Assembly (NCBI RefSeq): GCF_039536245.1
Contig: NZ_BAAAYN010000044.1
Location: forward strand, 258,230-322,229
Source: Cryptosporangium minutisporangium
GTDB taxonomy: Bacteria > Actinomycetota > Actinomycetes > Mycobacteriales > Cryptosporangiaceae
DNA: 64,000 nucleotides
Direction: 5' to 3'
Of the stretch, positions 18,901 to 33,742 are shown piece after piece. Below the pieces are notes generated by a model, which searched no databases, was not told the DNA's origin, and was given only the letters and a program-made list of their open reading frames with translations. The position numbers were made by a program, and so were the translations under genes. Positions within the stretch are counted from its first letter, which is position 1, and each line of letters opens with the position of its first letter.

Positions 18901-18934
18901 AGCGCCGGAGAGCGGTGTTCCGCTCCCCGGCGCT
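18901..18934 (-). terminator. Hairpin terminator of the microprotein gene
   Basis: Fifteen-bp stem (AGCGCCGGAGAGCGG / CCGCTCCCCGGCGCT, one mismatch) with a four-base loop, 21 bases downstream of the 43-residue ORF stop on the minus strand. It gives that ORF a self-contained transcription unit. Confidence 0.6.
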
Positions 18935-18955
18935 CCGGTGATTCGAGGGGTCAGC

Positions 18956-19087
18956 TCAGTAGCTGTAGTCCCAGCAGTCGTTGTAGCGCTTCTTGTGGTG
19001 GCGGGGACGGCGGCGCGGCTTGTAGCAGTCGTTGTAGTCCCAGTCGTTGCAGTGGTTGTTGTAGTCGTAGTCGTAGCAGCCGCTCAT
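18956..19087 (-). CDS. 43-residue Tyr/Asp/Asn/Cys-rich microprotein
   Basis: A very short gene with a strong AGGAGG nine bases before the ATG at 19087 and a hairpin after the stop. The peptide starts MSGCYDYDYNNHCNDWDYND, has a basic middle PRRRPRHHKKR and ends YNDCWDYSY. It contains 8 Tyr, 7 Asp, 5 Asn, 4 Cys (positions 4, 13, 21, 38) and 2 Trp, an extreme composition that random GC-rich sequence would not give; the two flanks repeat the YND/WDY theme. No signal peptide. No family recognised. It may bind metal, be disulfide-linked, or be a modified peptide precursor; a co-oriented methyltransferase follows 187 bases downstream. Confidence 0.65.
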   Translation of the reverse strand: MSGCYDYDYNNHCNDWDYNDCYKPRRRPRHHKKRYNDCWDYSY

Positions 19088-19208
19088 GTCGTCCAGCCTC
19101 CTGAAGTAGTTGGGGCTCGTTCCCCGTGCACCAATAGATTCGCGCGACCCGCCAGCCGGATCGATCGGCGACCGAACGCCCCGAACGTTCGATTCCGAAC
19201 ACAGCGAG

Positions 19209-20114
19209 TCACGTCCGCAGTGCCTCGTGGCGTGGCGTCCCCGCCCGTGTACGTCCGCTGTCCACGACGGACGCCAGGAGCAGCACCGCCCCGAGCACGA
19301 CGGGGACGCTCAGCTGCTCGCCGAGCAAGCTCACCGCCAGGACGGTGCCGGTCAGCGGTTCGAGTAGGGCAACGACCGTGGCGGTGGCGGCGGTGCTGCC
19401 GCGCAGGCCGCGGAAGTACAGCAAATACGCCACCGCCGTCGGAACGGTGGCGAGCAGGCACAGCAGCCCGATGGACGCCAACGAGAGATCGACGCCGAGG
19501 CCTGCGGTGGTGCTCGAGACGATCGCGAGCGCAGTACCGCCGAGCAGGAAGCCGTAGCCGGTCGACGTGGCCTCGTCCAGGTTCGGTACCGGGCGGCGGC
19601 CGACGAGCGTGAGCAGGGCGAAGCCGGCGCCGGCCAAGACGCTGAGCGCGGCACCCGCGAGCGTCGCCCCCAGAGATTGGCCGGTCGGGGCGCCGACGAG
19701 CAGACCGAGTCCGACGACGCCGGTGGCCACCGGCCGGACGTCGGCCCAGGACGGCAGCCGGCGTGCGGCCAGCGCGTCGGCAACCACCACGAGGATCGGC
19801 GCGGAGCCGATCGTGAGAAGCGTCGCGACGGTGACCGAGCTGACCGCCACGGCGGCGAAGTAGCTGGCCTGGAAGGCCGCGGCGAGGGCGGCGATCGCGC
19901 CGACCCGGCGCCACGCGCGGGTACCGCGCGGCACCCGGCCGACGATCAGCAGAGCGACGACGAGCAGGCCGCCGCCGAGCAGCAGCCGATAAGCGGCCAC
20001 CGCGGGCGCCGATACGGAGCCGACCTCGGTCAGGGCCCGGCCGGTGACACCGCCGGTGCCCCAGCAGACGCCGGCCGCGACCAGCAGGGCGAAGGACGAA
20101 CGAGAAGAAGACAA
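19209..20114 (-). CDS. EamA/DMT family transporter
   Basis: A 301-residue drug/metabolite transporter with ten predicted membrane helices in two EamA repeats. Repeat 1 begins FALLVAAGVCWGTGGVTGRA, and the second ends near VALLEPLTGTVLAVSLLGE, the conserved EamA signature PL-T-VLA-LLGE. The TTG at 20114 is the best start: GGAG lies seven bases upstream and the family N-terminus follows at once. Substrate unknown (amino acid or metabolite efflux likely). Single gene; the 205 bases upstream of it, up to the DinB stop, contain nothing I can identify. Confidence 0.85.
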   Translation of the reverse strand: MSSSRSSFALLVAAGVCWGTGGVTGRALTEVGSVSAPAVAAYRLLLGGGLLVVALLIVGRVPRGTRAWRRVGAIAALAAAFQASYFAAVAVSSVTVATLLTIGSAPILVVVADALAARRLPSWADVRPVATGVVGLGLLVGAPTGQSLGATLAGAALSVLAGAGFALLTLVGRRPVPNLDEATSTGYGFLLGGTALAIVSSTTAGLGVDLSLASIGLLCLLATVPTAVAYLLYFRGLRGSTAATATVVALLEPLTGTVLAVSLLGEQLSVPVVLGAVLLLASVVDSGRTRAGTPRHEALRT

Positions 20115-20319
20115 CGGAGAACTCCAGCAATGATCGAGGACACCGGTCGCGGAGAGCGGGACTCGATCGCGCCAGGGCAGCACCCAGCGCTACGCCGCCG
20201 AGCGGCGTGGAGAGGAACCCGCTCAGGCGCGGGGCGGCGGGGAGATGATCAGCCGAAGCACGGCGGGAATGCTAACAGCCGATCAGGAGGACGGCGCCCG
20301 CTGATCGCGGGTGGCCGCC

Positions 20320-20796
20320 CTACTCGCTGAGGATCTGCTCGCGCAGGATGTCGGCGTGGCCGCAGTGCTGTGCCAGCTCGCGCAGCACGTGGAGATAGAC
20401 CCAGCGCAGCGGGAGCGGGCCCCGGCGGTTGCCGTGGAGGACATCGTCCAGCGCCAACGAGGAGGTCGCGCGGCGGGAGGCTTCGCACGCCTCCCGGTGC
20501 GCCTGCCGGACGCTGTCGATCGTGTCGGCGTCGTCCAGGACGAAAGATTCATCCGGCGTCCGGGGGATGCCGATCGCCGCTCGCGACCGGCGGGTCACGG
20601 CTTCGTCGAACCAGACCTTCTCGACGAAAATCCCGTGCTTCACCAAGCCCAGCAGTGTGGTGCGGGACGGCACGAGCGAGCGGCGCGCCTGCTCCTCGGT
20701 GAGTCCGTCCAGACACGCGGCGAGCGTGCTGCGGTGCTCGTCGAGGAAGGCGTCGAACTGAGCGCGCTCGGGCCGGTGGAGGACCTCATCGCTCAT
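20320..20796 (-). CDS. DinB/DUF664 family protein (mycothiol transferase-like)
   Basis: A 158-residue four-helix protein of the DUF664 branch of the DinB superfamily, which includes mycothiol S-transferases. LTEEQARRSLVPSRTTLLGL then VKHGIFVEKVWFDE carries the first metal His, and WVYLHVLRELAQHCGHADIL carries the other His ligands; all three appear present. It likely conjugates mycothiol to electrophiles. It lies 19 bases downstream of the WYL regulator on the same strand, and so may be co-transcribed with it. Confidence 0.83.
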   Translation of the reverse strand: MSDEVLHRPERAQFDAFLDEHRSTLAACLDGLTEEQARRSLVPSRTTLLGLVKHGIFVEKVWFDEAVTRRSRAAIGIPRTPDESFVLDDADTIDSVRQAHREACEASRRATSSLALDDVLHGNRRGPLPLRWVYLHVLRELAQHCGHADILREQILSE

Positions 20797-20815
20797 GCCC
20801 GAAGCTTGCCAGATG

Positions 20816-21778
20816 CTAGTCGCCGAGGCCGAGGGCGCGACCCATGCGGGCGTGCAGGGCCCGGAAGTGTTCGACGAGTTCGATCGGCTCGTGCACCGTG
20901 AACTCGAAGCCGAACAGCGTCACGTGCAGCGCCAACCCGTCGAGGGAGTTCGAACCGGCGCGCAGCGTGCAGCTGTGCTCGTCGATCGTCTCGATCAGCC
21001 CGGCGTCGGCCGGTACCCGCGTCGCGACCTGATCGGCGGGGGCGTGCATCGTGAACCGTCCTTGGTAGCGGTAGTTCTGAACGCCCACCGCCCACGAGGC
21101 GTAGGCGCCGATGTTCTCGTCCGGCGGCGTCCGGGGAGTGAAACGCGGGCCGGGCGGCGTCCAGGGACGTAGCCGGTCGACGCGGAACGTGCGCCAGTCG
21201 TCGCGATCGACGTCGAACGCGACCAGGTACCAGCGACGGCCGGCGTGGACGAGCTTGTGTGGCTCGACCAGGCGGAGGGTCTCGGTGCCGTCGTGACTGC
21301 GGTAGTCGATGCGGAGCCGCTGGTGGTCACGGCAGGCGCCGGCGATCGTCGTCAGCAGCTCGGCGGAGACCACCGCGCCCGGCCGGTGCGGTGAGACCGT
21401 GGCCGCCCCGAGAGCCGAGACGCGGTGGCGCAGCCGCGGCGGCAGAATCTGTTCCAGCTTCGACAGCGCGCGTACCGAGGTTTCCTCGATGCCGACCACC
21501 GTGCCGTTCGCCGCGGTGCGCAGGCCGACCGCCACCGCGACGGCCTCCTCGTCGTCGAGCAGGAGTGGCGGCATCGTCGCGCCGGCCCCCAGGCGGTAGC
21601 CGCCGATGTTTCCGACGGTGGCGTGCACCGGATAGCCGAGCTCGCGGAGCCGCTCGACGTCGCGGCGGACCGTGCGCACGGTGACGCCGAGCCGGTCGGC
21701 GAGTTGCGGACCGGGCCAGTCCCGGTGCTGCTGCAGCAACGAGAGCAGACGGAGCAAGCGCGCGGACGTTTCGAGCAT
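20816..21778 (-). CDS. YafY-type WYL domain transcriptional regulator
   Basis: A 320-residue one-component regulator. The N-terminal HTH_11 domain is LETSARLLRLLSLLQQHRDW, with RLGVTVRTVRRDVERLRELG as the recognition region, followed by GGYRLG. A WYL domain (about 140-225) with HKLVHAGRRWYLVAFDVDRD and FRVDRL comes next, then a C-terminal WCX domain. The ATG at 21778 fits the family N-terminus with GAGGAG upstream. It is divergent from the epoxide hydrolase (80 bases apart) and upstream of the DinB gene, so both are candidate targets. Ligand unknown. Confidence 0.87.
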   Translation of the reverse strand: MLETSARLLRLLSLLQQHRDWPGPQLADRLGVTVRTVRRDVERLRELGYPVHATVGNIGGYRLGAGATMPPLLLDDEEAVAVAVGLRTAANGTVVGIEETSVRALSKLEQILPPRLRHRVSALGAATVSPHRPGAVVSAELLTTIAGACRDHQRLRIDYRSHDGTETLRLVEPHKLVHAGRRWYLVAFDVDRDDWRTFRVDRLRPWTPPGPRFTPRTPPDENIGAYASWAVGVQNYRYQGRFTMHAPADQVATRVPADAGLIETIDEHSCTLRAGSNSLDGLALHVTLFGFEFTVHEPIELVEHFRALHARMGRALGLGD

Positions 21779-21858
21779 GCGGCTGATTCTCCTCGGCAAC
21801 GAGGACAGAACCTGACCTCTTTGGCTGACACAGTCGAATCAACCCCGAGGAGGTAGTG

Positions 21859-22962
21859 GTGACCATCACCCCGTTCCGCATCGACGTTCCCCAGACCGCT
21901 CTGGACGACCTCGAGCAGCGCCTCGCGAGCCTGCGCTGGCCGACGCAGGTCCCGGACGTCGGCTGGGCACGCGGCGTCCCGGTCTCGTGGCTGGCCGAAC
22001 TCGTAGAGCAGTGGACGACGTCCTACGACTGGCGGGTCATCGAGCAGCGGCTCAACCAGCACCCGCAGTTCACCACCGAGATCGACGGGCAGACGATCCA
22101 CTTCCTGCACGTCCGTTCGCGGCACGATCAGGCGCTCCCGTTGCTCCTGCTGCACGGCTGGCCGGGTTCGATCGCGGAGTTCCTCGACGTCATCGAGCCG
22201 CTCACCGACTCGGACGAGCCCTTCCACCTGGTGATCCCGTCGCATCCGAACTTCGGCTTCACCGGCCCGGCCGGCGCTGGGTGGGACGGGCGCCGGATCG
22301 CGACCGCGTACGCCGAGCTGATGGCGCGGCTCGGCTACGAGCGCTACGGCGTCCAGGGCGGTGACTTCGGCGCGATGATCGCTCCGGAGATCGGCCGGGT
22401 CGACGCCGAGCACGTGGTCGGCGTCCACGTCAACGCGGCGACGGTGGGCTTCATCCCGCTCGAAGAGGTCTCGGAGGACGAGCAGTTCACCGAGGCCGAG
22501 AAGGCCCGGCTGGGGCGTCTGCAGGAGTTCATGTCCGACGGCAACGGCTACTTCCAGATCCAGGCCACCCGGCCGCACACGCTGGGCTTCGCGCTGGCCG
22601 ACTCCCCGGTCGGGCAGCTGGCCTGGATCGGCGAGAAGTTCCACGACTGGGCGAACCCTGCCGGGTCGATCGCCGCCGCGCACGTGCTCGACCACGCCAC
22701 GCTGTACTGGCTGACCAACACCGGCACCTCGTCCGGCCAGCTGTACTACGAGGCGATGCACTCCCAGCACTGGCCGACGCCGTCGTCGGTGCCGACCGGG
22801 GTGGCCAACTTCGCCGAGGACATCGCGATCCGCCGCTACGCCGAGCAGGTGAACAAGATCGTGCACTGGGCCGAGTACGAGCAGGGTGGTCACTTCGCGG
22901 CGCTGGAGGTGCCGGAGGTGTTCGTGGCGGAGGTCCGGACGTTCTTCCGCATCGTTCGCTGA
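21859..22962 (+). CDS. Epoxide hydrolase
   Basis: A 367-residue alpha/beta-hydrolase-fold epoxide hydrolase with the EHN N-terminal domain (residues about 1-110, ITPFRIDVPQTALDDLEQRL). LLLHGWPGS carries the oxyanion region, the nucleophile is Asp169 in VQGGDFGAMI and the base is His345 in EQGGHFAALE. The second GTG (21859) is chosen because GAGGAGG lies five bases before it. Divergent from the WYL regulator, which likely controls it. It hydrates epoxides to diols; homologues serve detoxification or secondary metabolism. Followed by the repeated hairpin at 22975. Confidence 0.88.
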   Translation: MTITPFRIDVPQTALDDLEQRLASLRWPTQVPDVGWARGVPVSWLAELVEQWTTSYDWRVIEQRLNQHPQFTTEIDGQTIHFLHVRSRHDQALPLLLLHGWPGSIAEFLDVIEPLTDSDEPFHLVIPSHPNFGFTGPAGAGWDGRRIATAYAELMARLGYERYGVQGGDFGAMIAPEIGRVDAEHVVGVHVNAATVGFIPLEEVSEDEQFTEAEKARLGRLQEFMSDGNGYFQIQATRPHTLGFALADSPVGQLAWIGEKFHDWANPAGSIAAAHVLDHATLYWLTNTGTSSGQLYYEAMHSQHWPTPSSVPTGVANFAEDIAIRRYAEQVNKIVHWAEYEQGGHFAALEVPEVFVAEVRTFFRIVR

Positions 22963-22974
22963 CCGCGTTGGCGT

Positions 22975-23007
22975 CGGCCCCGGAGTGCGGTGGTCACTCC
23001 GGGGCCG
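22975..23007 (+). terminator. Palindromic hairpin, copy 2 of the repeated element
   Basis: Thirteen-bp perfect stem (CGGCCCCGGAGTG / CACTCCGGGGCCG) with a seven-base loop, 12 bases after the epoxide hydrolase stop. It is the same as the element at 17915-17947 apart from a two-base change in the loop. Confidence 0.72.
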
Positions 23008-23054
23008 ATCGTTATTTGCTCGACAGCTCGGACCTCTGTGCGGAGGGTCGAGGG

Positions 23055-23816
23055 GTGACTGTTGACCAGATCGCGTTCGTCCGGGACGGCTTCGTACACG
23101 TGCCCGGCGCCTTCCCCCGCGACGTGGCCGACGCCGCTCGCGCGCTGCTGTGGGAACGCACCGGCTGCGATCCCGATGACCCCACCACCTGGACTCGGCC
23201 GGTGATCCGTCTCGACGGCTACGGCGACGAGCCGTTCCGGGTCGCCGCCAACACGCCGACGCTGCACGCCGCCTTCGACGCGCTGGTCGGCGCTGGCCGC
23301 TGGCGGCCGCGAACCGGACTCGGCACGTTCCCGATCCGGTTCCCGCACCCGGACGATCCCGGTGACGGCGGCTGGCACGTCGAGGGCAGCTTCGGGGAGC
23401 GGACCGGGTACCGCACGAACGTGGTGTCGCGCGGCCGGGCGCTGCTCATGCTGTTCCTGTTCTCGGACGTCGGGGCAGACGACGCCCCGACGCGCATCCG
23501 GGTCGGCTCCCATCTCGACGTGCCACCGATCCTGGCCCCGGCCGGCGACGAAGGGCTCGACTTCATGGAGCTGGCGAAGCAGGCCGTGCCCGCCTCAGCG
23601 GATCGGCCGGTCGTCCACGCCACCGGCGAGGCGGGTGACGTCTACCTCTGCCACCCCTTTCTGGTACACGCCGCGCAGCCGCACACCGGCCGCCAGCCGA
23701 AGTTCATGGCACAGCCGCCGCTGGACCCCGTGGGTGAGCTGGTTCTCGACCGACCCGACGGGGCCTACTCGCCGGTCGAGCAAGCGGTGCGGCTCGGGCT
23801 CGGAGTACGTCGGTAG
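23055..23816 (+). CDS. Phytanoyl-CoA dioxygenase (PhyH) family protein
   Basis: A 253-residue Fe(II)/2-oxoglutarate oxygenase of the PhyH family. The N-terminal IAFVRDGFVHVPGAFP is typical. The metal site reads His108-x-Glu110 (GWHVEGSFG), with Glu instead of the more usual Asp, and His200 in YLCHPFLVH; the 2-oxoglutarate Arg/Lys is probably in HTGRQPKF. GTG at 23055 has GGAGGG seven bases upstream. A hydroxylase for a small molecule is likely. It stands as a single gene behind the repeated hairpin. Confidence 0.82.
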   Translation: MTVDQIAFVRDGFVHVPGAFPRDVADAARALLWERTGCDPDDPTTWTRPVIRLDGYGDEPFRVAANTPTLHAAFDALVGAGRWRPRTGLGTFPIRFPHPDDPGDGGWHVEGSFGERTGYRTNVVSRGRALLMLFLFSDVGADDAPTRIRVGSHLDVPPILAPAGDEGLDFMELAKQAVPASADRPVVHATGEAGDVYLCHPFLVHAAQPHTGRQPKFMAQPPLDPVGELVLDRPDGAYSPVEQAVRLGLGVRR

Positions 23817-23927
23817 TGGTCGGCGACTGCGCGGACGCGGGTCGGCGTAGCGCGGCGGCTCCGCCGCAGGGTGGGGAAACGAGGCGAGCCCTCGACTTGA
23901 TCGAACACACGTTCGTAACCTGCGGAC

Positions 23928-24167
23928 ATGCGAGTCGTGCGGCATTGGTGGAACCAGCAGTGGGGACGGTTGGGGCGCCGTGACGTCTACGTGCGCAGTG
24001 ACGGCAGCCGGTTCCAGGTCGAGGTCGCCCAGGGCGGAGCCGAGGGCAGACGCTGGCTGGCGTTGTTCGACAGCCTCGACGAGGCGATCGCGGAGGCGGA
24101 GAAGCACTTGGGGGACCCGAACGACCGGTGGCGGGACGTCAGCGACGCGCACCACTCATCGGGCTGA
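23928..24167 (+). CDS. Small hypothetical protein
   Basis: A 79-residue soluble protein: WWNQQWGRLGRRDVYVRSDG, then RWLALFDSLDEAIAEAEKHL, ending acidic. It has a beta-hairpin-then-helix look, and similar stand-alone small proteins are common in actinobacteria, but I recognise no named family. ATG start without a strong ribosome binding site. It converges with the membrane-protein pair at 24173, five bases between stops. Confidence 0.6.
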   Translation: MRVVRHWWNQQWGRLGRRDVYVRSDGSRFQVEVAQGGAEGRRWLALFDSLDEAIAEAEKHLGDPNDRWRDVSDAHHSSG

Positions 24168-24172
24168 TCGGC

Positions 24173-24490
24173 TCACCCGCCGAAGAAGTACGCGGTCGGC
24201 GGTAGGACGAACACCAGTTGGCAGCCGGGCAGCAGGACGGTGGAGACTCCGAGGGCCGTAGCGCGGACCGTGCTCCGCCAGGGCGAGCGCTGCGGCCCGG
24301 TGAGGAGCACTCCCCAACCGATGGCCACCCCCACGACGATCGAAGCGGCGAGGAACAGCGGCTGTACCCGCTCGTAGGGGGCACTGCCGGTGAGCAGGAT
24401 CCACAACCCCCGGTACAGCTGGAAGCCGCCCCACACACCCGCAGCGACGAGGAGCGGCACCAGCAGCATCGTGGTCCGGCGTGAGCTCAT
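24173..24490 (-). CDS. Small membrane protein
   Basis: A 105-residue protein with three hydrophobic helices (TMLLVPLLVAAGVWGGFQLY, LFLAASIVVGVAIGWGVLL, ALGVSTVLLPGCQLVFVLP). The start overlaps the stop of the preceding gene by four bases (ATGA), so the two membrane proteins are made together and may form a complex. No family recognised. Confidence 0.7.
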   Translation of the reverse strand: MSSRRTTMLLVPLLVAAGVWGGFQLYRGLWILLTGSAPYERVQPLFLAASIVVGVAIGWGVLLTGPQRSPWRSTVRATALGVSTVLLPGCQLVFVLPPTAYFFGG

Positions 24491-24828
24491 AGCGTCCGCC
24501 ACAGGACCCCCAGCCCGATCAGGAGTAGGAGGAACGGCGCGACCAGCGCGCCGACCCCGGCGGCGGCCAGGGCGTCGAGCGACGGGCGGCGACCCGGGCG
24601 ACGGCGAGTCGCCACGAGCACCAACCAGCCGACGAGGACGCCGAGGCCGGTGGCGGGAACACCACCAACTGCCACGGCGGCGAGCAGGGGCGGCGCCAGG
24701 TACTCCGGCACCAGCGGCCGGAGTGCGAACACCAGGAGGAGATGGGCGCCAGACAGATAGTTGACCACCAGCAGAGCCGTCCACCACGGGCGCTTCCCGA
24801 CCACCGGCGACTCTGCGGACGTGGTCAC
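24487..24828 (-). CDS. Small membrane protein
   Basis: A 113-residue protein with three to four hydrophobic helices (WWTALLVVNYLSGAHLLLVF, LLAAVAVGGVPATGLGVLVG, LVAPFLLLLIGLGVLW). First gene of a two-gene unit with the overlapping downstream membrane protein. No catalytic motif or known family. A promoter is expected in the 52 bases towards the Lrp-type gene at 24881. Confidence 0.7.
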   Translation of the reverse strand: MTTSAESPVVGKRPWWTALLVVNYLSGAHLLLVFALRPLVPEYLAPPLLAAVAVGGVPATGLGVLVGWLVLVATRRRPGRRPSLDALAAAGVGALVAPFLLLLIGLGVLWRTL

Positions 24829-24880
24829 GCCGTGATTGTGCCGCCGCCGGTAGATCTGCAGTGGCGGACGGACAAAATCG

Positions 24881-25393
24881 TCACTCGGGCCCGCTCCAGC
24901 CGGCGGACGGCGTCACCGGGCGCTCGATCGTCTCCGGGCGGGACACCGTCGCGTCCTGGTACTGCGTCGAGAGGACCACGTGGGTGTGGAGTTCACCGTG
25001 CCGGCCGAGTTGCTCGATCACCCCTTCGAGGTGGGCCAGCGACGCGGCGCGGATCTGGATCATCGTGCAGTGCGCTCCGCTGAGCTTGTGCACCTCGGTC
25101 ACCTCGGGGTAGTCCGCCGCGCGGCTGGTACGCAGCAGACAACTGCCGAGCTTGCAGCGGAGCTGGACGAAGGCGGTGATGCCGTAGCCGGCCCGCACGG
25201 GGTCGACGACCGCCCGGTAACCACTGATGACGCCGACCTGTTCGAGTCTGCGCACCCGCTCGGCGACGGCTGGCGACGACAGATGGATGCGGCGTCCGAG
25301 TTCGTTGAACGACAGTCGGCCGTCCTTCTGCAGCTCGTCCAGGATGCGCCAGTCGACGTCGTCCAGGGCATATTCCGAACGTGAGGAGTTCAC
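24881..25393 (-). CDS. Lrp/AsnC family transcriptional regulator
   Basis: A 170-residue Lrp/AsnC regulator. The HTH reads LDDVDWRILDELQKDGRLSF, NELGRRIHLSSPAVAERVRR, LEQVGVISGYRAVVDP; the C-terminal RAM domain (about 80-145) includes YPEVTEVHKLSGAHCTMIQI and should bind an amino acid. GTG at 25393 has GGAAGG eight bases upstream. It is divergent from an MFS transporter (89-bp gap), and likely controls it, a common amino-acid export arrangement. Confidence 0.9.
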   Translation of the reverse strand: MNSSRSEYALDDVDWRILDELQKDGRLSFNELGRRIHLSSPAVAERVRRLEQVGVISGYRAVVDPVRAGYGITAFVQLRCKLGSCLLRTSRAADYPEVTEVHKLSGAHCTMIQIRAASLAHLEGVIEQLGRHGELHTHVVLSTQYQDATVSRPETIERPVTPSAGWSGPE

Positions 25394-25482
25394 CGCTACA
25401 GCCTTCCGAATGACAGGTCGATCGTCGATACCGACGGACGTCGCCCATGGGCTGGGAGGGCCGACTTTCTTAGCGTTTGCGC

Positions 25483-26655
25483 ATGTCACTAAACGATCGC
25501 AGGTTGGCAGCGCTCTGGGTCGCCGGTGCCGCAGGCGGACTGGCGCAGACGCTGCTCGGCGTCGCCGCGACTCTGGTGGCGGCCGAGATGGCCGGTAACG
25601 CTGGCACGGCAGGCTTCCCGCAGGCGCTGCAGGTGCTCGGCGCCGCGGGCTTCGCGCCGGTGGTTTCCCGATGGTCGTCCCGGACGGGCCGGGGGATCGG
25701 CCTCGCCATCGGTGCGACCGTCGGGGCGGCGGGCGGTGCGGTGTCGGTCGCGGCCGTGGCCCTGCACAGCGTGCCGCTGCTCTTGCTCGGCAGTTTCCTC
25801 GGAGGCGGGGGTGCGACCGCGGTCGCCCTGGCCAGGTACGCCGCGGTCGAGGTCGGTGGCCACCGGGGCGCCGGGCGTGCGGTCTCGTCCGTGCTCGCAG
25901 CCGTCGCGGTCGGGGCGGTCGTGGGGCCGAACCTACTGGCACCGACCGTGCATCTCGACCGCCTGGTAGGTCTTCCTCGCTTCAGCACGGGCTTCCTCCT
26001 CGCGACCGTTGTCTTCCTCGTCGCCGGAGCGGTGTGGGCGATCGGCGCGCCTCGCGGCGCGATCGGACCGGCTCCCGCGGGTGTGCGGTGGGCCTTCGGT
26101 CGATCCGCTTTTGCCGTCGCCGTGCTCGGTCTGGCGAACCTGGTGATGGTGGCGACGATGACGATGGTGCCGGTGCAGCTGCACCACATCGGCGGTGGTC
26201 TGGGCTCGATCGGGATCGTGGTCGGCGTCCACATCGCTGCAATGTTCGCGCCGGCGCCGATCAGCGGTTGGGTGGTCGACCGGTTCGGGATCGGCCATGG
26301 CGCAGCGGTGGCCTGCGGGACGCTCCTGGCGGCCACGTCGCTCGCGGCGCTGTCCGCAGGATCGGTGTGGGGGCTTCTCGTCGCGGTCGCACTGCTGGGC
26401 TTCGGCTGGAGCGCCGCCGTGGTCACCGGCAGCGCCGCGTTGGTGCGGTGGGCTCGACCGGAGGAGCGGCCGAGGCTGGAAGCGGCGGGCGAGGTCGGGA
26501 TGGGTGTGGCCGCGGCGGTCGGCGGAGCGGCGTCCGGCCTGGTGGTCGGCGTCGGCGGCTACGCAACGCTGGCGACGCTCGGCGCCGCCTGCGTCGCCGT
26601 CGGGCTGGTGCCGCTGTGCCTCCGCCTGTCCACACTGGTTCCCGCCGACGCCTGA
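25483..26655 (+). CDS. MFS transporter
   Basis: A 390-residue major facilitator protein with about twelve hydrophobic helices; VVSRWSSRTGRGIGLAIGA matches the loop 2-3 region of MFS proteins (G-x-x-S-x-R-x-G-R form) and GWVVDRFGIGHG the equivalent loop in the second half. ATG at 25483; no strong ribosome binding site. Divergent from the Lrp-type regulator, which suggests an amino-acid or related efflux role. The GNAT gene converges six bases downstream. Confidence 0.85.
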   Translation: MSLNDRRLAALWVAGAAGGLAQTLLGVAATLVAAEMAGNAGTAGFPQALQVLGAAGFAPVVSRWSSRTGRGIGLAIGATVGAAGGAVSVAAVALHSVPLLLLGSFLGGGGATAVALARYAAVEVGGHRGAGRAVSSVLAAVAVGAVVGPNLLAPTVHLDRLVGLPRFSTGFLLATVVFLVAGAVWAIGAPRGAIGPAPAGVRWAFGRSAFAVAVLGLANLVMVATMTMVPVQLHHIGGGLGSIGIVVGVHIAAMFAPAPISGWVVDRFGIGHGAAVACGTLLAATSLAALSAGSVWGLLVAVALLGFGWSAAVVTGSAALVRWARPEERPRLEAAGEVGMGVAAAVGGAASGLVVGVGGYATLATLGAACVAVGLVPLCLRLSTLVPADA

Positions 26656-26661
26656 GGCGGG

Positions 26662-27192
26662 CTAGTCGACGCTCGGCGCCGGGTCGGTGCGCAGTCGGCT
26701 GTAGAGCAGGCCGTCGTGCCACTCGCCGGCGCGGAATTCGCAGGCGCGCAGGACGCCCTCCAACTGGAATCCGGCTTTCACCAGGGCCTTCTGCTCGGCA
26801 GTGTTCTCCGGGTGGGTGCCGGCTTGGATGCGTTGCACCGGGGTGTGGCTGAACAGGTAGTCGCAGAGCATCGCCTGTGCCCGCCAACCGACGCCCTGTC
26901 CGCGCCACTCCGGCAGCACGACGATGCCGATCTCCCAGTACGCCCCCGCGCTGCCCATGCTGCCGCGTCGCCAGTTCACCATGGCCACCGTCGTCCCGTC
27001 GTCGGCGTCGACCATCAGCCAGCCGAGGTCCTCGCCGAGAAAGCCGTCCTCGGCGAACCGCCGTGCCGGATGACCCGGATCGCGGAAGCCGTTCCAGTCC
27101 AATCCGACGAAGTCAGGGTCGGTGCGGAGCCGCCGGAACAGCTCCAAGTCCTCCTCGGCGGCCGGCCGAAACCGTAAGGGCAACAGATTCAC
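26662..27192 (-). CDS. GNAT family N-acetyltransferase (RimJ/RimL-like)
   Basis: A 176-residue acetyltransferase. LRFRPAAEEDLELFRRLRTD opens the domain; the acetyl-CoA loop is IGIVVLPEWRGQGVGWRAQA (Q/R-x-x-G-x-G/A form), then IQAGTHPENTAEQKALVKAG and FQLEGVLRACEFRAGEWHD, typical of RimJ/RimL-type enzymes acting on amines. GTG at 27192 has AGAGAGG three bases away; upstream in-frame codons run into a palindrome. Substrate unknown. Confidence 0.85.
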   Translation of the reverse strand: MNLLPLRFRPAAEEDLELFRRLRTDPDFVGLDWNGFRDPGHPARRFAEDGFLGEDLGWLMVDADDGTTVAMVNWRRGSMGSAGAYWEIGIVVLPEWRGQGVGWRAQAMLCDYLFSHTPVQRIQAGTHPENTAEQKALVKAGFQLEGVLRACEFRAGEWHDGLLYSRLRTDPAPSVD

Positions 27193-27216
27193 GAGCCTCT
27201 CTCCGATCCTCTCGCT

Positions 27217-27267
27217 GAGCGGTGTGCACTTCAGCGACCTATGGCCTGCCGGAGTGCACACCGCCTC
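27217..27267. repeat. Long-loop inverted repeat sharing sequence with the repeated hairpin
   Basis: Arms CGGTGTGCACT (27220-27230) and AGTGCACACCG (27253-27263) are perfectly complementary over 11 bp, extended by GAG/CTC after a one-base bulge, around a 22-base loop. The core GGAGTGCACACCG resembles the hairpin at 17915-17947. It lies 28 bases upstream of the GNAT start and at the end of the TetR remnant; an operator or terminator is possible. Confidence 0.5.
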
Positions 27268-27545
27268 ACGGTGTCATGGCCCTACCGCGAAGCAGGACGT
27301 GAAGGCCCTCGGTGAACTCCGCGTCGGCGGTGAGTCGGCCGGCGTGCCGGGCGTTGGCGGCCGTGTGCGGGAACTCGTCCGGCGGCAGTGCGGCCAGCGC
27401 TCGGGTGCCCCCGCCGGCCAGCGGTCCGAGGTGTTCGAGCTGCGGCCAGGTCGGCGACCCGTTCCTGACCCTCGCGCACGCCCACCCGGTCGGCGAGGGA
27501 CCGTCGACCAAGGTCGATGGACGGGCGACCTCCGGCCGCTGAGCG
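27266..27545 (-). pseudogene. C-terminal remnant of a TetR-type regulator
   Basis: On the minus strand the frame WPQLEHLGPLAGGGTRALAA, LPPDEFPHTAANARHAGRLT, ADAEFTEGLHVLLRG resembles the C-terminal ligand-domain end of TetR regulators (PPxEFP...DAEFExGLxxLLxG). No HTH region or plausible start is found upstream; that DNA now belongs to the divergent membrane-protein gene at 27614. About two thirds of the gene is missing. It covers most of the otherwise unexplained 27193-27613 stretch. Assigned from pattern only. Confidence 0.45.
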
Positions 27546-27613
27546 GGGACCGGCGGCGACGCGACCCTGAGTTCGTGCAGGTGACCAGGCCTGCGGAACC
27601 TGAAGGAGCGCCG

Positions 27614-28684
27614 ATGTCTCGTCGACGGCGGATCGCGCCGGTGCTGGCGCTCGGGGTGCTGGCGCCGTGGGCCGCGGAGTGCTCGTGGGGCGGCTTCGCA
27701 CTGAGCGACTACCTCATCGTTGTCGTGTTCCTCGGGCCGCTCTACGGAGGGGCGGCCGTGTTGATCCGAGAGGTGGTCCGCCGCACCGGCGGGGGCTGGC
27801 CCCAGATCGCGCTGCTCGGTTGCGCGTTCGGCATGTACCAGGCGGGCCTGGTCGACCAGGCACTGTTCAACCTGGACTACCTCAGCGACACCGAATACGC
27901 CGACCTGGCCAGCGATCCGCGGGCAACGCTCGTGCCCGGCCTGGAGTTCAGCGCCGCAGACGCGCTGAACTACGTCGGCAACCACATCGTGCTGAGCATC
28001 TGCGTGCCGATCGCGATCGTCGAGTCGCTCGTCGCGCCGGACCGCCGACGCGAGCCGTGGCTCGGGCGGTGGGGACTGGCCGTGGTCGGCGTTCTGTTCG
28101 TGCTCGGCAGCCTGCTCATTCATTCGGACGCCGCCAAGGGCTTCACCGCAGAGCCGCACCAGCTGGGGTTCGCCGTCGTGGTGGTCGTCGCGCTGATCGT
28201 GGTGGCGGTGCTGACGCCGTTGCCGACGCTCGAACGACGATTCGCCTGGAGGTGGCCGCGGCCGAGCGCGTGGAGTCGCTCCGACGCGCGGCCGGCACCG
28301 CGGCCGTTCTGGAGTGCGGTGGTGACGCTGGCGGCGGCGGCCACCGCGGGCGTCGTCCCCGGGTGGGGTGGCGTCGCCCTCTTCGCGGGTGCGATCGGGG
28401 TCGCCGTCGTCGTGGTCGTGCGCTGGTCGCGGCGGCCCGGGTGGGACCAGCGGCACGTACTCGCGGCGTTCTCCGGGCCGCTCGTCCTGGTGGCCGCGTA
28501 CGCGTACGTGGTGCCGAACTACGCGCCGGCCAGCCCGACCGAGGCGCTCATCGGCGACCTCGCGATCAGCGTCGTGACGCTGGCGCTGCTCGTCCCGGCG
28601 TTCTGGCGCCTGCGCCACGAAGAGCGCGTCGCCGCCCGCCCGATCGATGAGCAGGCGACGTCGTCCGAGGGTGCGGACCGTTGA
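27614..28684 (+). CDS. Multi-pass membrane protein
   Basis: A 356-residue membrane protein with nine or so hydrophobic segments. The N-terminal half has WGGFALSDYLIVVVFLGPLY and AVLIREVVRRTGGGW, and the mid-part YVGNHIVLSICVPIAIVESL. No transporter or enzyme signature recognised. ATG at 27614 has AAGGAG five bases upstream. It ends 10 bases before the GTG of the ECF sigma factor at 28695 and may share its transcript. Confidence 0.72.
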   Translation: MSRRRRIAPVLALGVLAPWAAECSWGGFALSDYLIVVVFLGPLYGGAAVLIREVVRRTGGGWPQIALLGCAFGMYQAGLVDQALFNLDYLSDTEYADLASDPRATLVPGLEFSAADALNYVGNHIVLSICVPIAIVESLVAPDRRREPWLGRWGLAVVGVLFVLGSLLIHSDAAKGFTAEPHQLGFAVVVVVALIVVAVLTPLPTLERRFAWRWPRPSAWSRSDARPAPRPFWSAVVTLAAAATAGVVPGWGGVALFAGAIGVAVVVVVRWSRRPGWDQRHVLAAFSGPLVLVAAYAYVVPNYAPASPTEALIGDLAISVVTLALLVPAFWRLRHEERVAARPIDEQATSSEGADR

Positions 28685-28694
28685 TACTGGGCCC

Positions 28695-29654
28695 GTGACC
28701 GATTTGGACGCCGCCCGCGCCGGTGACCAGCACGCGTTCGGGACGCTCGTCGGGTCCTACCGTCGGGAGCTGGAGGTCTACTGCTACCGCATGCTCGGTG
28801 GCACCCAGGACGCGGAAGACGCGGTGCAGGAGACGCTGCTGGCGGCCTGGCGCGGCCTGCCCGCCTTCGAGGAGCGCAGTTCCCTGCGCACCTGGCTCTA
28901 TCGGATAGCGACCCGTTGCTGCCTGCGGCTCGCGGAGCGTCGTCCGCCGCGGGTGTTGTCGTGGGAGCACGGGCCCGCGCGAAACTGGGGTGAAGACCTC
29001 GGCGCCCCGGTCGATGGGCCGGTCTGGGTGGAGCCCCTCGCCCCGGATCCCCTCGCCCCGGATGCCTTCGCCCCGGATCCCGGCGCGCAGGTCGAGCGGC
29101 GGGAGACGATCGCGCTCGCGTACATCGCGGCGTTGCAGCGGTTGCCCGCGACACAGCGAGCCGTGCTGATTCTGCGGGAGGTGCTCGCGTTCTCCGCGCA
29201 GGAGGTCGCCGACCTGCTGGAGACCAGTACCGCGTCGGTCAACAGCGCGCTGCAGCGGGCCCGCGCCACGATGTCCGCGACGCCGGACGAGTGGCCCGGC
29301 CGCCCCGAGGTGGCGCACCGCGAGGCCGCGGACGCGTTCGTTGCGGCGTTCGTCGCCGGTGACGTGGATCGGCTGGTGCGGTTGCTCACCGACGACGTGC
29401 GGTTCACCATGCCGCCGCTGCCCGCGTGGTTCGACGGCGTGGACGCGGTCCGGGAGTTCTTCGCGACGCGCGTGTTCGCAACGCCGTGGCGCGCGGTGCG
29501 GGTGCCCGACGTGAACGGGCAGCCAGCGTTCATCGGGCACCAGGAGGGCGGCGCTGCGCTGGTCGTCTTGCACTTCCGCGGCGGGCAGGTGTGCTGGGTG
29601 GCGTCGTTCCTGGAGCCGGGGATGGTGGCTCGGTTCCAGGGAATTTCCGGCTGA
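28695..29654 (+). CDS. ECF sigma factor with SnoaL-like C-terminal domain (SigG-like, TIGR02960 type)
   Basis: A 319-residue sigma factor. Sigma2 (about 10-75) contains YRRELEVYCYRMLGGTQDAE, DAVQETLLAAWRGLPAF and RSSLRTWLYRIATRCCL; sigma4 (about 140-195) contains RLPATQRAVLILREVLAFSA. A C-terminal NTF2/SnoaL-like domain (about 205-315, FVAAFVAGDVDRLVRLLTDD) replaces a separate anti-sigma factor, as in the SigG/SigJ groups. The sigma2-sigma4 linker contains a threefold 15-bp repeat (29037-29081). GTG at 28695 matches the family N-terminus. Confidence 0.87.
   Translation: MTDLDAARAGDQHAFGTLVGSYRRELEVYCYRMLGGTQDAEDAVQETLLAAWRGLPAFEERSSLRTWLYRIATRCCLRLAERRPPRVLSWEHGPARNWGEDLGAPVDGPVWVEPLAPDPLAPDAFAPDPGAQVERRETIALAYIAALQRLPATQRAVLILREVLAFSAQEVADLLETSTASVNSALQRARATMSATPDEWPGRPEVAHREAADAFVAAFVAGDVDRLVRLLTDDVRFTMPPLPAWFDGVDAVREFFATRVFATPWRAVRVPDVNGQPAFIGHQEGGAALVVLHFRGGQVCWVASFLEPGMVARFQGISG
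29037..29081 (+). repeat. Three 15-bp tandem repeats in the sigma factor linker
   Basis: Units CTCGCCCCGGATCCC, CTCGCCCCGGATGCC and TTCGCCCCGGATCCC encode LAPDP-LAPDA-FAPDP in the interdomain linker. In-frame 15-bp units allow copy-number change without disrupting the gene. Confidence 0.85.
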
Positions 29655-29717
29655 CCGATGAGTTCGGGCGCGGCGGCGTCTCTGACCGGGGGAGAACACT
29701 TCCCGATAGGAGCAGCC

Positions 29718-30302
29718 ATGCGTTCGGTCATCGTCACGAACATCGTCTCTCTCGACGGTTACTACGCCGCCTCGGACGGCAATCCGTTGGTGCTGAACAT
29801 GGATGAGGCGTTCGACGTCTACAACCGCGAGCGAATCGAAGCCGCCGACACGGTGCTGCTCGGGCGGACGTCGTTCGAGGAATTCGGCAGCTACTGGCCA
29901 TCGATCGCCGATGCACCGGAGGACCCGGAGAACCCCGCACTCGATGAGGAGAACCGGCGGATCAGCCGGGCGTGGGCGGTCACGCCGAACGTCGTGGTCT
30001 CGGACCGGTACACGGTGCCGCCGGCGCATCCGTGGGCGGATCACACTACGGTCGTGGCCCGCGACGGAGTCAAGGAGTGGCTCGCCAACTCATCGGGCGA
30101 GGTCGTCGTGTTCGGTAGCCGGACGATGTGGAACGCGCTACTCGACCAGGGGCTGATCGACGAGGTGCACCTGATGGTGAGTCCGACCGTGCTCGGTGAC
30201 GGCGTGCCGGCGTTCACTGCGCCGCGGCGTCTGCGGCTCCTCGGTACGAGGACGTTCGACGGCTCCGACAACGTCCTTCATCGGTACGCCGCCCAGCGCT
30301 GA
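29718..30302 (+). CDS. Dihydrofolate reductase/RibD C-terminal domain family protein
   Basis: A 194-residue DHFR-fold protein: RSVIVTNIVSLDGYYAASDG at the N-terminus, DTVLLGRTSFEEFGSYWPSI, then EVVVFGSRTMWNALLDQGLI and DEVHLMVSPTVLGDGVPAF, the standard RibD_C order. The family reduces pterin or pyrimidine substrates with NADPH; most stand-alone members have unknown substrates. ATG has AGGAG five or six bases upstream. It lies 63 bases after the ECF sigma factor, and so is a candidate for its regulon. Confidence 0.85.
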   Translation: MRSVIVTNIVSLDGYYAASDGNPLVLNMDEAFDVYNRERIEAADTVLLGRTSFEEFGSYWPSIADAPEDPENPALDEENRRISRAWAVTPNVVVSDRYTVPPAHPWADHTTVVARDGVKEWLANSSGEVVVFGSRTMWNALLDQGLIDEVHLMVSPTVLGDGVPAFTAPRRLRLLGTRTFDGSDNVLHRYAAQR

Positions 30303-30523
30303 CATGCTGGGGCGATGAGTCCGCTGGTGCCAGGTACGCGCTGGAGGCCTTTCCGCAGTGGCAGCGAATAGTCCGCGAGAGCCTACGGATCCGCACCCGG
30401 TCGGGGCGCCGGTCGCTGTACCGGACGCCCTTCGGGCGCCGCCGGGACCTGATCGAGCTCTGGGACGCTCTGTACGCGGACGCGCAGCGCTTCGCCGCCG
30501 ACGCCGGGTGGGACGCCGACTGA
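30303..30523 (+). pseudogene. Start-less reading frame, possible gene remnant
   Basis: One frame encodes ARYALEAFPQWQRIVRESLR, then SGRRSLYRTPFGRRRDLIEL, WDALYADAQRFAADAGWDAD and stops at 30521. The composition is protein-like, but no ATG, GTG or TTG exists in frame after the upstream stop. An ATG at 30315 is out of frame and ends after 18 codons. It may be a truncated gene end or chance. The remainder up to 30599 holds the MerR promoter. Confidence 0.3.
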
Positions 30524-30562
30524 GAAAAGGTCCCGGCTGTCCGGACACGTACGCGTCGGCGC

Positions 30563-30593
30563 TTGAGTCTCCACCGGGTGGAGCCTGCACGCT
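30563..30593 (+). promoter_or_regulatory. MerR-type promoter with 19-bp spacer and dyad operator
   Basis: TTGAGT (30563-30568) and CACGCT (30588-30593) are separated by 19 bases containing the perfect inverted repeat CTCCACC-G-GGTGGAG (30569-30583). The long spacer with a central dyad is diagnostic of MerR-activated promoters. The predicted transcription start falls at or next to the ATG at 30600, implying a leaderless message. Confidence 0.75.
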
Positions 30594-30599
30594 GATCAC

Positions 30600-31682
30600 A
30601 TGGACGCCCCGTACTCGATCGGAGACCTGGCCCGTCGGACCGGCCTGTCGGTCCGGACGATCCGGTTCTACGCCGACGCCGGCGTGGTGCCGCCGACCGA
30701 TCGCAGCGCCGCCGGCTACCGCCGGTACGACGCCGACGCCGTGGCCCGCCTGGAGCTGGTTCGCACACTGCGCGAACTCGGCCTCGACCTGTCCACGATC
30801 CGGCGAGTGGTCGATCGTCGGCTCTCGCTGGCCGAGGTCGCGGCGGCGCACGCCGAGGCGCTGGACGTCCAGATCCGCACCCTGCACGCCCAGCGTTCCG
30901 TGCTGTCCCTGATCGCCGCACGGAGCGCCGACCCCACGGAGGTTCCCTTGATGCATCGGCTGGCCCGCCTGTCGGCGGCGGAGCGCGAACGGCTGGTCAC
31001 CACGTTCGTCGACGAGACGTTCGGTGATCTGGACGCCAACCCGGACTTCGTCGCGATGATGCGTGCCGCTCTGCCGGAGCTGCCCGACGATCCCAGCCCG
31101 GAGCAACTGGACGACTGGGTGGCGCTGGCCGAGCTGATCCAGGACCCACGGTTCCGGGCAAGTGCCCGGCGCGCCGCCGAATACCAGGCGGCGCAGCGGG
31201 CCGACGGCGACCGGACGGGTCTTCACGGCGCGCTGACGGAGGAGGTCCGGACGCTGGTGGAGGAGGCGCTGGCGGCCGGCGTCGAACCGGACTCACCTGC
31301 GGCTGGGCCGATCGTCGACCAGCTGGTGGCGCGGTACGCAGCCGAGTTCGGTGCGGCGGACGATCCGGCCTACCGCGCGTCGCTGGTGACCCGCGTGGAG
31401 GTGGGAGGCGACCCGTACGCGGAGCGGTACTTCCAGCTGCTGGCGCGGCTCAACGGCTGGCCGGAGTTCCCGTCGCTGCAGCCGGTGGTGCGGTGGCTGC
31501 CGGCAGCGCTGCTCGCACTTCCGACCAGCGCACGAGACTCATCGTTCCTCCTCAGCAGCGATCTTCCTACCTCCGAACAACCTGTGGGTCCCTGGGCGAC
31601 TATGCGTGGGGACCGGTCGGAGTGGGCCGGGGGAAGAGGGTCAGGAAGCGGGCCGCCACCACTCGGCAGCCGCGGACCGTGA
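30600..31682 (+). CDS. MerR family regulator with extended C-terminus
   Basis: A 360-residue MerR regulator. The HTH reads YSIGDLARRTGLSVRTIRFY and ADAGVVPPTDRSAAGYRRYD, followed by the coiled dimer helix and a large helical effector domain. It is a paralogue of the protein at 47767-48693, with which it aligns to about residue 305 (RWLPAALLAL). The last 55 residues, from PTSARDSSF on, have no counterpart there, look like noncoding translation, and run 83 bases into the convergent HxlR gene. Loss of the original stop is likely. Its own promoter (30563-30593) suggests autoregulation. Ligand unknown. Confidence 0.85.
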   Translation: MDAPYSIGDLARRTGLSVRTIRFYADAGVVPPTDRSAAGYRRYDADAVARLELVRTLRELGLDLSTIRRVVDRRLSLAEVAAAHAEALDVQIRTLHAQRSVLSLIAARSADPTEVPLMHRLARLSAAERERLVTTFVDETFGDLDANPDFVAMMRAALPELPDDPSPEQLDDWVALAELIQDPRFRASARRAAEYQAAQRADGDRTGLHGALTEEVRTLVEEALAAGVEPDSPAAGPIVDQLVARYAAEFGAADDPAYRASLVTRVEVGGDPYAERYFQLLARLNGWPEFPSLQPVVRWLPAALLALPTSARDSSFLLSSDLPTSEQPVGPWATMRGDRSEWAGGRGSGSGPPPLGSRGP

Positions 31683-32268
31683 CCCGGCCGGCGGCTTCGG
31701 CAGTCGCGACGTCCTCGTCGGTGAACACCAGCGCACGAAGGGCCGCGGCGCTGCTCTCCAGCTCCGCGTCCACCGCGTCGGCCTCCGCGCGAACGATCCC
31801 GAAGCGTCCGTCCTCCACCGTCGCGACCAGCCGATCACCGTCGACGACCAGTGAGCACCGCGCCCGCAGGTCGCCGGCGGCGGCCGCGTCGAACGTCGTC
31901 CGCAGCGCCAGGGCAAGCGCGTCCACGCTCATCTCCACGGTCGACGTGAGCGGCGTCCGACTGCCCCAGCGGGCCAGCTCCAGCAGCGCCGGCGCGAGCG
32001 CGTGCCCGCTCTCGGTGAGTTCGTAGACCCATGTGCTCGTCGGCGGGCCGAGCTGCCGTCGACCCAGCACACCGGCGTGCTCCAACTCGGTGAGCCGCTG
32101 CGTGAGCATGCTCTGGCTCGCCCCCGGCAGACCGCGCCGCAGGTCGGAGAACCGTTTCGGCCCCAGCAGGAGTTCTCGGACGACCAGCAAGGCCCACCGG
32201 TCGCCGACGAGGTTGAGCGCCCGGGCCAGTCCACACGGGTCGTCGTAAGTTCGCGCCACGAACGTCAT
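31600..32268 (-). CDS. HxlR family transcriptional regulator with SCP2-like C-terminus
   Basis: A 222-residue HxlR-type winged-HTH regulator: CGLARALNLVGDRWALLVVR, ELLLGPKRFSDLRRGLPGAS, SMLTQRLTELEHAGVLGRR. The usual HxlR is about 110-150 residues; here an extra C-terminal domain of about 100 residues with LVVDGDRLVATVEDGRFGIV resembles SCP2-like lipid or ligand sensing modules. It is divergent from the PPOX-hydrolase pair across a palindromic site and probably represses both. Its 3' end overlaps the MerR gene by 83 bases. Confidence 0.87.
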   Translation of the reverse strand: MTFVARTYDDPCGLARALNLVGDRWALLVVRELLLGPKRFSDLRRGLPGASQSMLTQRLTELEHAGVLGRRQLGPPTSTWVYELTESGHALAPALLELARWGSRTPLTSTVEMSVDALALALRTTFDAAAAGDLRARCSLVVDGDRLVATVEDGRFGIVRAEADAVDAELESSAAALRALVFTDEDVATAEAAGRVTVRGCRVVAARFLTLFPRPTPTGPHA

Positions 32269-32282
32269 TGTATTGTTCCCGA

Positions 32283-32319
32283 ACCCTCTGGTACTAAATT
32301 AGCACCAAGTTGAGAGGGT
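32283..32319. promoter_or_regulatory. HxlR operator nested in a hairpin that covers a ribosome binding site
   Basis: The 17-bp dyad GGTACTAAATTAGCACC (32290-32306; GGT-n-CTAA-n-TTAG-n-ACC) is the kind of GTACTAA-type site bound by HxlR proteins. It is flanked by ACCCTCT (32283-32289) and AGAGGGT (32313-32319); the right arm is the ribosome binding site of the PPOX gene, so RNA folding could also limit translation. Confidence 0.6.
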
Positions 32320-32324
32320 CTTCG

Positions 32325-33478: not shown

Positions 33479-33542
33479 GTGTCGCGGCCCGGAGAGGTCG
33501 TCCGCGAGGAACCCGCCCCGACGCCCGGCCGTTTCTCGGAGC

Positions 33543-33722
33543 ATGCGAGGTGCGCGGGCGTACGCCTATGCCGTCTGGGCGGCCAAGTACGTCATCGTCG
33601 GGCTGATGATCGTGATGACCATCCTCGCGGCCTCGATCGGGCTGATCGTTCCCGCCCGGATCCCCGAGTTACCGGTGCGTCCCGGCGTCGTCGCCGAGCA
33701 GCTCTACGAGCGACCCGATTGA
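33543..33722 (+). CDS. Small single-pass membrane protein
   Basis: A 59-residue frame, MRGARAYAYAVWAAKYVIVG, then a hydrophobic helix continuing LMIVMTILAASIGLIV and a short polar tail. One transmembrane helix, about residues 16-36. GGAG is only one base from the ATG, so the start is not well supported. No family recognised. It lies between the hydrolase and MOSC genes on the same strand. Confidence 0.5.
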   Translation: MRGARAYAYAVWAAKYVIVGLMIVMTILAASIGLIVPARIPELPVRPGVVAEQLYERPD

Positions 33723-33742
33723 CAAAAACGTAGGGTCGGCGG

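Follow-up and report, generated by a model that had tools for sequence, protein, structure and literature searches.

Is a reading frame of 43 codons, with a composition that sets it apart from the other short frames around it, a gene, and if so, what could its product be needed for? The locus that raises this question lies in a stretch of 64,000 nucleotides, which we will call the window, with a GC content of 71%. The translation of the open reading frame (ORF) is MSGCYDYDYNNHCNDWDYNDCYKPRRRPRHHKKRYNDCWDYSY (43 aa), with 8 Tyr, 7 Asp, 5 Asn, 5 Arg and 4 Cys. The original prediction was built on an extreme content of Tyr, Asp, Asn and Cys, arranged about a basic centre, and this is confirmed: Y, D, N and C together account for 56% of the residues, which places the peptide at the top of the 110 ATG ORFs of 30 to 55 aa present in the window, and the runner-up reaches 29%. 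This distance from the next ORF excludes chance as the source of the composition, and a chance ORF is excluded by the 57 copies of it counted in the four genomes searched within the genus. That the frame is a real gene, and a member of a real gene family, can be taken as practically certain.

The positions of the gene and of its flanking signals are given in Table 1. The ribosome-binding site (RBS) attributed to the ORF is present; the terminator attributed to it can be retained as far as its hairpin goes, but the T-run 3' of this hairpin (TTCGTG) is weak. Such hairpins are a frequent companion of the family, since an unbroken stem of at least 12 pairs was found in 29 of the 57 copies as against 7 of 1000 random 75-mers, while a looser stem criterion is without discrimination (52 of 57 copies and 196 of 300 random stretches). 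On the same strand, the ORF stands between an EamA-type transporter gene upstream and a Methyltransf_19 (DUF574) gene downstream. Three elements go beyond what had been noticed at this locus, namely the paralogues, a conserved 82-bp block upstream and the absence of any recurrent neighbour.

Table 1. Position and strand of the features of the microprotein locus, in window coordinates
Feature	Position	Strand	Remarks
43-aa microprotein ORF	18956..19087	minus	ATG at 19087, TGA ending at 18956
Shine-Dalgarno region TCAGGAGGCTGG	19093..19104	minus	within the conserved start context GGAGGCTGGACGAC-ATG
Terminator-like hairpin	18901..18934	minus	15-pair stem with one G-U (counted by eye), weak T-run
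Upstream block, 82 bp	19121..19202	minus	constant length in 48/49 aligned copies; candidate promoter
Putative -10 hexamer GAATCT	19136..19141	minus	block positions 62-67; A63 and T67 invariant in alignment A3
Putative -35 hexamer TCGATC	19159..19164	minus	block positions 39-44; 17-bp spacer
Putative activator half-sites TGT (19199-19201), GAAC (19187-19190), CGT (19176-19178)	19176..19201	minus	about 11-12 bp apart

A microprotein family found in one genus

Searching the window genome (G000) with the peptide gave ten matches, and a profile made from the family (A1) recovered there ten full copies and one partial duplicate at an assembly gap. In the three other genomes of the genus that were searched (G001-G003) there are 17, 10 and 20 copies, seven of those in G001 forming a cluster, which brings the family to 57, that is, 58 profile matches minus the duplicate at the N-gap in locus L013. 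The gap itself (L013, 3175-3467) is a 146-bp direct duplication around an N, an assembly artefact inside one copy. Six of the 57 copies (L062-L065, L078 and L079) are cut by contig ends and are without their upstream part. Draft contigs end inside copies or inside upstream blocks at several places (C11, C21, C31 and C32 of G002; C47, C60 and C75 of G003; C52 of G000), so that the copy numbers are lower bounds and the scaffolds may be misjoined. A possibly abundant protein would be easily overlooked under these circumstances, with a very short gene and with copies that break draft assemblies, as in G002 and G003, where contigs end inside them. Some copies have decayed (L057 and L071); L071, in which neither a start nor the block was found, was excluded from the codon and upstream analyses, and L057 was restarted at CTG.

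Homologous short ORFs in relatives, which would be expected of a true gene, do exist, and were found only within the genus. The one genome of the sister genus that was searched (G004) has no copy of the microprotein. A wider profile (A2) matched 4 of the 397 genomes of an order sample, which are the four genomes of the genus, and 1 of the 394 genomes of a class sample, which is the window genome itself; these scans cover samples, and the best 18 first-look candidates were scored in most genomes. Pattern and profile scans of wider genome contigs, viral contigs, plasmids and phages, from which the window genome or near records were possibly excluded, returned no relative. Among curated families, there was no match in Pfam at 1e-3 or in NCBIfam at E 1, PHROGs gave only E 0.3, and no PDB sequence matched profile A2 at E 1. 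Among the genomes sampled, the family is confined to one genus. None of the libraries searched contains it, and no sampled genome of another genus has it. A literature search at the level of abstract openings did not find the peptide described, which is no proof of its absence in print.

The coding nature of the copies is seen first in their signals. Of the 58 matches (the gap duplicate included), 50 start with ATG and have an RBS in which 5 or 6 of 6 bases agree; the remaining eight are the six copies cut by contig ends, L057 with its CTG and L071, where no start was found. In 52 of 52 full-length copies, which range in length from 38 to 46 codons, the C-terminal W(D/S)(Y/F) motif is in frame with the start, and the length of the 5' leader varies freely from copy to copy. 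No internal stop was met in any match when the genomes of the genus were searched by reading through stops and counting them. Frameshifted copies are under-counted, as the copies were found via a protein profile; one shortened and frame-broken family member stands behind a block in G003 (C60). That 56 of 56 ORF lengths are divisible by three is a consequence of the way in which ORFs are cut, and hence no evidence.

The amino-acid sequence of the microprotein is under constraint. In a neutral simulation, in which the observed number of substitutions was placed at random at 70% GC, pairs of copies with 1 to 8 nucleotide differences were given 4.04 amino-acid changes, as against 2.10 observed, and pairs with 26 to 40 differences 21.9 as against 17.0. 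The observed changes are below the neutral ones in each of the five divergence classes, and the probability of a stop codon under neutrality is 0.26 to 0.77. The selection postulated for this frame is thus upheld, by the simulation and by the 57 copies in the genus, although the test that would seem the most natural one looks near-neutral when taken by itself: for copies of the same genome, the raw pN/pS is 0.93, 0.44, 0.81 and 0.37 in the four genomes, and for copies of different genomes it is 0.90. In a six-frame comparison (internal gaps ignored) the true frame even has the highest value, 1.05, with 0.70 to 1.00 in the five others, so that pN/pS, tried as the main coding argument, is not decisive. 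The variable columns are likewise flat over the three codon positions, with 25/19/17 in G000 and 10/15/11, 21/16/16 and 20/16/18 in the other genomes, and an excess at third positions is absent in all four. The GC content by codon position is 46, 41 and 93%, and almost all of the synonymous variation falls in Arg, Pro, Ser and Gly codons. In our reading of these data, it is this extreme codon bias (GC3 of 93%) that limits synonymous change and explains both the high pN/pS and the flat variability over codon positions.

No recurrent neighbour emerged around the copies. A home-made, GC-based caller predicted 93 neighbouring ORFs, of which 80 were scanned (among the 13 omitted are several short ORFs of doubtful status and the G002 orthologues of the two genes that flank the window copy, methyltransferase and transporter), and no Pfam family occurred in more than 3 of these 80 proteins. 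The methyltransferase next door therefore looks incidental: its position downstream on the same strand is as described, but a functional link to the microprotein finds no support.

The upstream block and the genes behind it

The copies are stand-alone units made of the block, a strong RBS, the ORF and often a hairpin. The block extends from GTGTT to GGGGA, and is 80 bp long in the single aligned copy that departs from the usual length. Its strongest positions include T2, G3 and T4, A9, G13 to C16, T19, G26 and T27, G37 and A38, G41 and A42, T55, A63 and T67. The arrangement would fit an activator-dependent promoter, with a -35 box, a 17-bp spacer, a -10 box and activator sites upstream; the putative hexamers are poor.

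A model of the block (R1), derived from alignment A3, from which L066 was excluded, gave 70 matches at E<=1e-5 in the five genomes searched, all of them within the genus (G000-G003). The E-values are rough, with 150 of about 19,000 to 34,000 first-look candidates scored per genome. As assigned by eye, 51 matches lie at known copies (two of these flank the assembly gap) and 19 elsewhere. Of these solo blocks, three are interrupted by the end of a contig, in two cases just past the start codon of the family, and two stand before family members that are shortened or broken. Another four lead into a hairpin with no family ORF (by eye), and one (G001:3165484) into half of a family-type hairpin, after which comes a long ORF. 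Five lie ahead of a different ORF, and the last four are without an evident gene.

The different ORFs are informative as to what the block may control. In G001, a solo block (L155, 990-1220; G001:C1:8960489-8960714) precedes a 40-aa peptide rich in His and Asp, with an RRRRRHH centre and no Cys, which shows the same acidic-basic-Trp layout as the microprotein with 12 His in its 40 residues (by eye), and for which, among 397 order genomes, only its own gave a match. In G002 (L161, G002:C1:329208), a block stands before a 37-aa Tyr-rich peptide (MSYGTETYEESG...), of which a 36-aa orthologue exists in G000 (L167, G000:C30:116395) behind a weaker block match (6.3e-4). In G001 only, the block precedes a sigma factor of the SigB/SigF/SigG family (TIGR02980, with a score of 241 bits where the cut-off is 234), whose start is some way downstream of it. 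Two further ORFs behind solo blocks are membrane-protein-like and belong to no family. In G000 and G001, weaker matches (6.8e-5 and 8.1e-5; L150, G000:C64:52075, and L156, G001:C1:8155051) stand before a 46-49-aa ORF, after which comes a secreted Trypsin_2 protein, and in G002 and G000 (6.3e-4 and 2.2e-3) they stand before a DUF3558 lipoprotein. The scores of the protease and of the lipoprotein are near background, being close to the best match in the sister genus (5e-4), where there is no such gene arrangement and where the block is not expected; several matches at E 0.01 to 0.1 lie apparently inside genes. Matches near 1e-3 were counted only via orthologues, and orthologues in genomes so similar are not independent.

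We read these observations as a genus-specific regulon of which the microprotein is the main output, and that the block defines one regulon seems to us very probable. If this is true, the regulator can be approached through 82 bp of DNA, and the dose through the copies.

Anatomy and possible role of the microprotein

In 26 sequences of the family, the recurrent parts are a start of the type MS(G/D)CYDY, a basic loop and an end of the type CW(D/S)Y. The most conserved region is formed by the middle and the C-terminal half, and a variable number of Tyr/Asp/Asn units is found near the N-terminus. A conserved spacing of four cysteines had been envisaged; what is conserved is a pair, which brackets the basic block in 49 of the 52 full-length copies with 13 to 17 residues between (14 in 33 of the 49), one of the two being missing in the other 3. 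The loop, for instance C-KPRRRRHHKKRYND-CW, averages 54% K/R over the 49 copies and contains Arg clusters. The three segments of the window peptide have net charges of -5, +8 and -2, and the net charge across copies lies between -1 and +4. This polar peptide carries 10 aromatic residues and almost no aliphatic ones; over the longer copies, A, V, L, I, F and T together make up 0.6% of residues. Structure prediction from the single sequence gave a mean pLDDT of 42 and no confident fold, a low confidence that is no proof of disorder.

The explanation that accounts best for the whole, and that we put forward tentatively, is that of a co-regulated, dose-amplified microprotein family. Through multiplication, each genome would have come to carry at least 10-20 of these genes as separate, dispersed transcription units, which recombination between copies would have partly homogenised. 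The block would be a sigma-70-type promoter preceded by activator sites at intervals of about one helical turn. Through these sites, one regulator would switch on the copies jointly, perhaps under stress or during development, a guess prompted by the SigB/F/G-type sigma factor gene that the block precedes in one species. The product, which is the least certain part, would be an abundant, unexported and disordered block polyampholyte acting stoichiometrically, in which the Cys-bracketed Arg/Lys/His loop would bind a polyanion, most likely nucleic acid, and in which the acidic and aromatic tails would neutralise the loop and drive self-association, the copy number setting the dose. The stand-alone genes, the common block and the high copy number suggest that the product is needed in quantity. 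A stoichiometric, dose-dependent role is on this basis rather probable; the binding of a polyanion by the loop is a more doubtful proposal. We favour stoichiometric polyanion binding because the most constrained part of the peptide is the Cys-bracketed basic loop and because its tails are acidic and aromatic.

Several known systems can be set beside such a family. The chaplins of Streptomyces are encoded by several paralogous short genes of one genome, which are controlled together and whose products act in bulk. The paralogous short genes are a point in common, and the joint control and bulk action probably are too. In contrast, chaplins are secreted, hydrophobic and amyloid-forming, with an N-terminal export signal and a hydrophobic chaplin domain, while the window peptide is highly polar and its sequence, read by eye, has no signal sequence or hydrophobic stretch. 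As a general kind, a lineage-specific multicopy family of small proteins under one control element, the microprotein family would, judging from the chaplins, belong to what is already known. Few bacteria are known to us in which a single undescribed microprotein is encoded by 10-20 dispersed and partly homogenised genes that share a control region, and the literature search brought up no such case. Protamine-like and small spore DNA-binding proteins are also short, with Arg clusters accompanied by Tyr, His and Cys, and would share a high dose with the microprotein, but they differ from it in that its tails are acidic and aromatic, its charge is close to balanced over the range given above, and there is no sequence match. 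Type I toxin-antitoxin peptides are short, hydrophobic and reside in the membrane, which is unlike this polar peptide and its near lack of aliphatics.

The main rival of the polyanion reading is the binding or storage of metal. The C...HH...C loop and the Asp/Tyr/His tails would then chelate a metal such as Zn, Cu or Ni, gene amplification would raise the dose, and a metal-responsive activator would act on the block. Indeed, the two bracketing Cys enclose at least one His in 49 of 49 copies and adjacent HH in 41 of them, and the His/Asp-rich analogue behind the same block has His in the place of Tyr and Cys, as expected if ligand chemistry outweighs residue identity. Metallothioneins have a high content of Cys arranged in CXC/CXXC clusters, and their dose is often raised by amplification; together with the His-rich metal storage proteins, they resemble the microprotein in being small, Cys- or His-rich and amplified in dose. 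The microprotein, however, has only 2 to 5 Cys per copy, no CXC or CXXC among the 26 family sequences (by eye) and no family match, and its strongly basic, Arg-rich loop would be unusual for a metal store. Moreover, no metal transporter or metalloregulator was seen among the recurring Pfam families of the neighbours (25 of the 76 families of the 80 proteins) or, by eye, among the genes behind solo blocks. Metal binding is in our opinion an unlikely function, and it is the best of the alternatives; the disulfide role mentioned in the original prediction may also apply.

Positions and turnover of the copies

Few copies of the window genome keep their places in the other species. In only two of the ten copies of the window genome is the DNA homologous on both sides of a G002 copy, with about 80% identity for the window copy and 84-89% for the one at L013 10586. 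For L012, only upstream DNA is in common, and its distance from the copy differs between the two genomes (1.2 kb and 2.4 kb). No copy position is shared with G001 or G003 among the loci compared, and at the window locus the EamA side is kept in G003 (C63), with the other side unmatched there. Shared flanks were considered for two pairs, L016 with a G001 copy and L053 with a G003 copy, and rejected, as they amount to one gene each at other distances, in the first case also in another orientation. In the three genomes searched for them, the flanks of L011, L014, L015 and L016 form no collinear empty site. At L015 (2807-3237), a copy sits at a junction, its left and right flanks matching two different G002 contigs, neither of which has a copy; this could be a rearrangement or a misjoin in the draft of G000, which consists of 152 contigs. 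Near-identical copies have no similarity visible by eye outside the unit that goes from the block to the hairpin. Within the unit, copies are mosaic: in three genomes, 122 of 325, 126 of 210 (G001) and 105 of 153 pairs of informative sites show all four gametes, some of which repeated substitution may produce.

These features could also be those of a selfish or mobile cassette, in which units of roughly 330 bp would spread with the ORF and the promoter as cargo or as the spreading mechanism. The sharp ends of the similarity, the few positions shared with G002, the copy-free contigs matching the flanks of L015 and the mosaicism (126 of the 210 pairs in G001) all fit such an element, and dispersed repeats of the MITE or REP type are likewise short, dispersed and near-identical, with positions that vary between species. 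Such repeats differ, however, from units that show constraint at the protein level, which a parasite does not need, and whose boundaries are a block common to other genes and a hairpin. The 5' end of the unit, being the start of this common block, is possibly a regulatory boundary; recombination between copies explains the homogenisation, and the junction is possibly an assembly error. The recurring neighbour families shown include no transposase, and neither terminal inverted repeats nor target duplications were noticed when the flanks were looked at by eye, which was not systematic. We regard a cassette as improbable, and a purely selfish nature is among the less likely readings, together with the next two.

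The original prediction also mentioned a RiPP-like precursor. Such a peptide would be cross-linked through Tyr, Trp, His or Cys by one distant enzyme serving many dispersed precursors, as in the prochlorosins. Here as there, many short, precursor-like genes are dispersed in each genome, and the family adds aromatic and Cys residues and a recurrent CW(D/S)Y-type C-terminal motif. But the conserved middle and C-terminal half and the variable N-terminal units are not the pattern of a conserved leader and a variable core, no maturation gene recurs among the 80 neighbours, and Pfam and NCBIfam give no match, so that this proposal fares poorly and we deem it very unlikely. Least credible of all is a family of regulatory RNAs in which the transcript would be the product and the ORF incidental: the four solo blocks with a hairpin and no family ORF, and the failure of raw pN/pS and of codon-position variability to single out the coding frame, would agree with it, but it is opposed by the start and end motifs in a common frame, by the simulated amino-acid constraint, by the conserved RBS and start, and by an upstream RNA structure that is unconvincing (alifold energy of -23.9 against -19.7 +/- 3.2 for 50 shuffles of the columns).

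Coming back to the co-regulated, dose-amplified family, the best evidence on gain or loss of the ORF comes from one orthologous site in three species, and it may be read in either direction. With flanks of 81-90% identity, this site has the block and the same hairpin in G000 (L013, about 3097-3500), G002 (L157, G002:C1:976297) and G003 (L169, G003:C46:14400), and the microprotein ORF in G000 only; the G000 copy is the one at the assembly gap, and G003 has another short ORF there. Because the block and the hairpin are kept in all three species and the ORF in one, one may imagine a regulon colonised by a self-multiplying microprotein gene, whose ORF would spread by recombination between shared upstream and terminator sequences, with block-hairpin pairs as landing pads that gain or lose it, and with a dose-dependent, condensate-forming polyampholyte as the product, its basic loop being switched by redox or by metal. 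This is a long shot. An apparent remnant, made only of the last codons of a copy and the hairpin, is seen by eye in G003 (L072, about 2120-2180; G003:C2).
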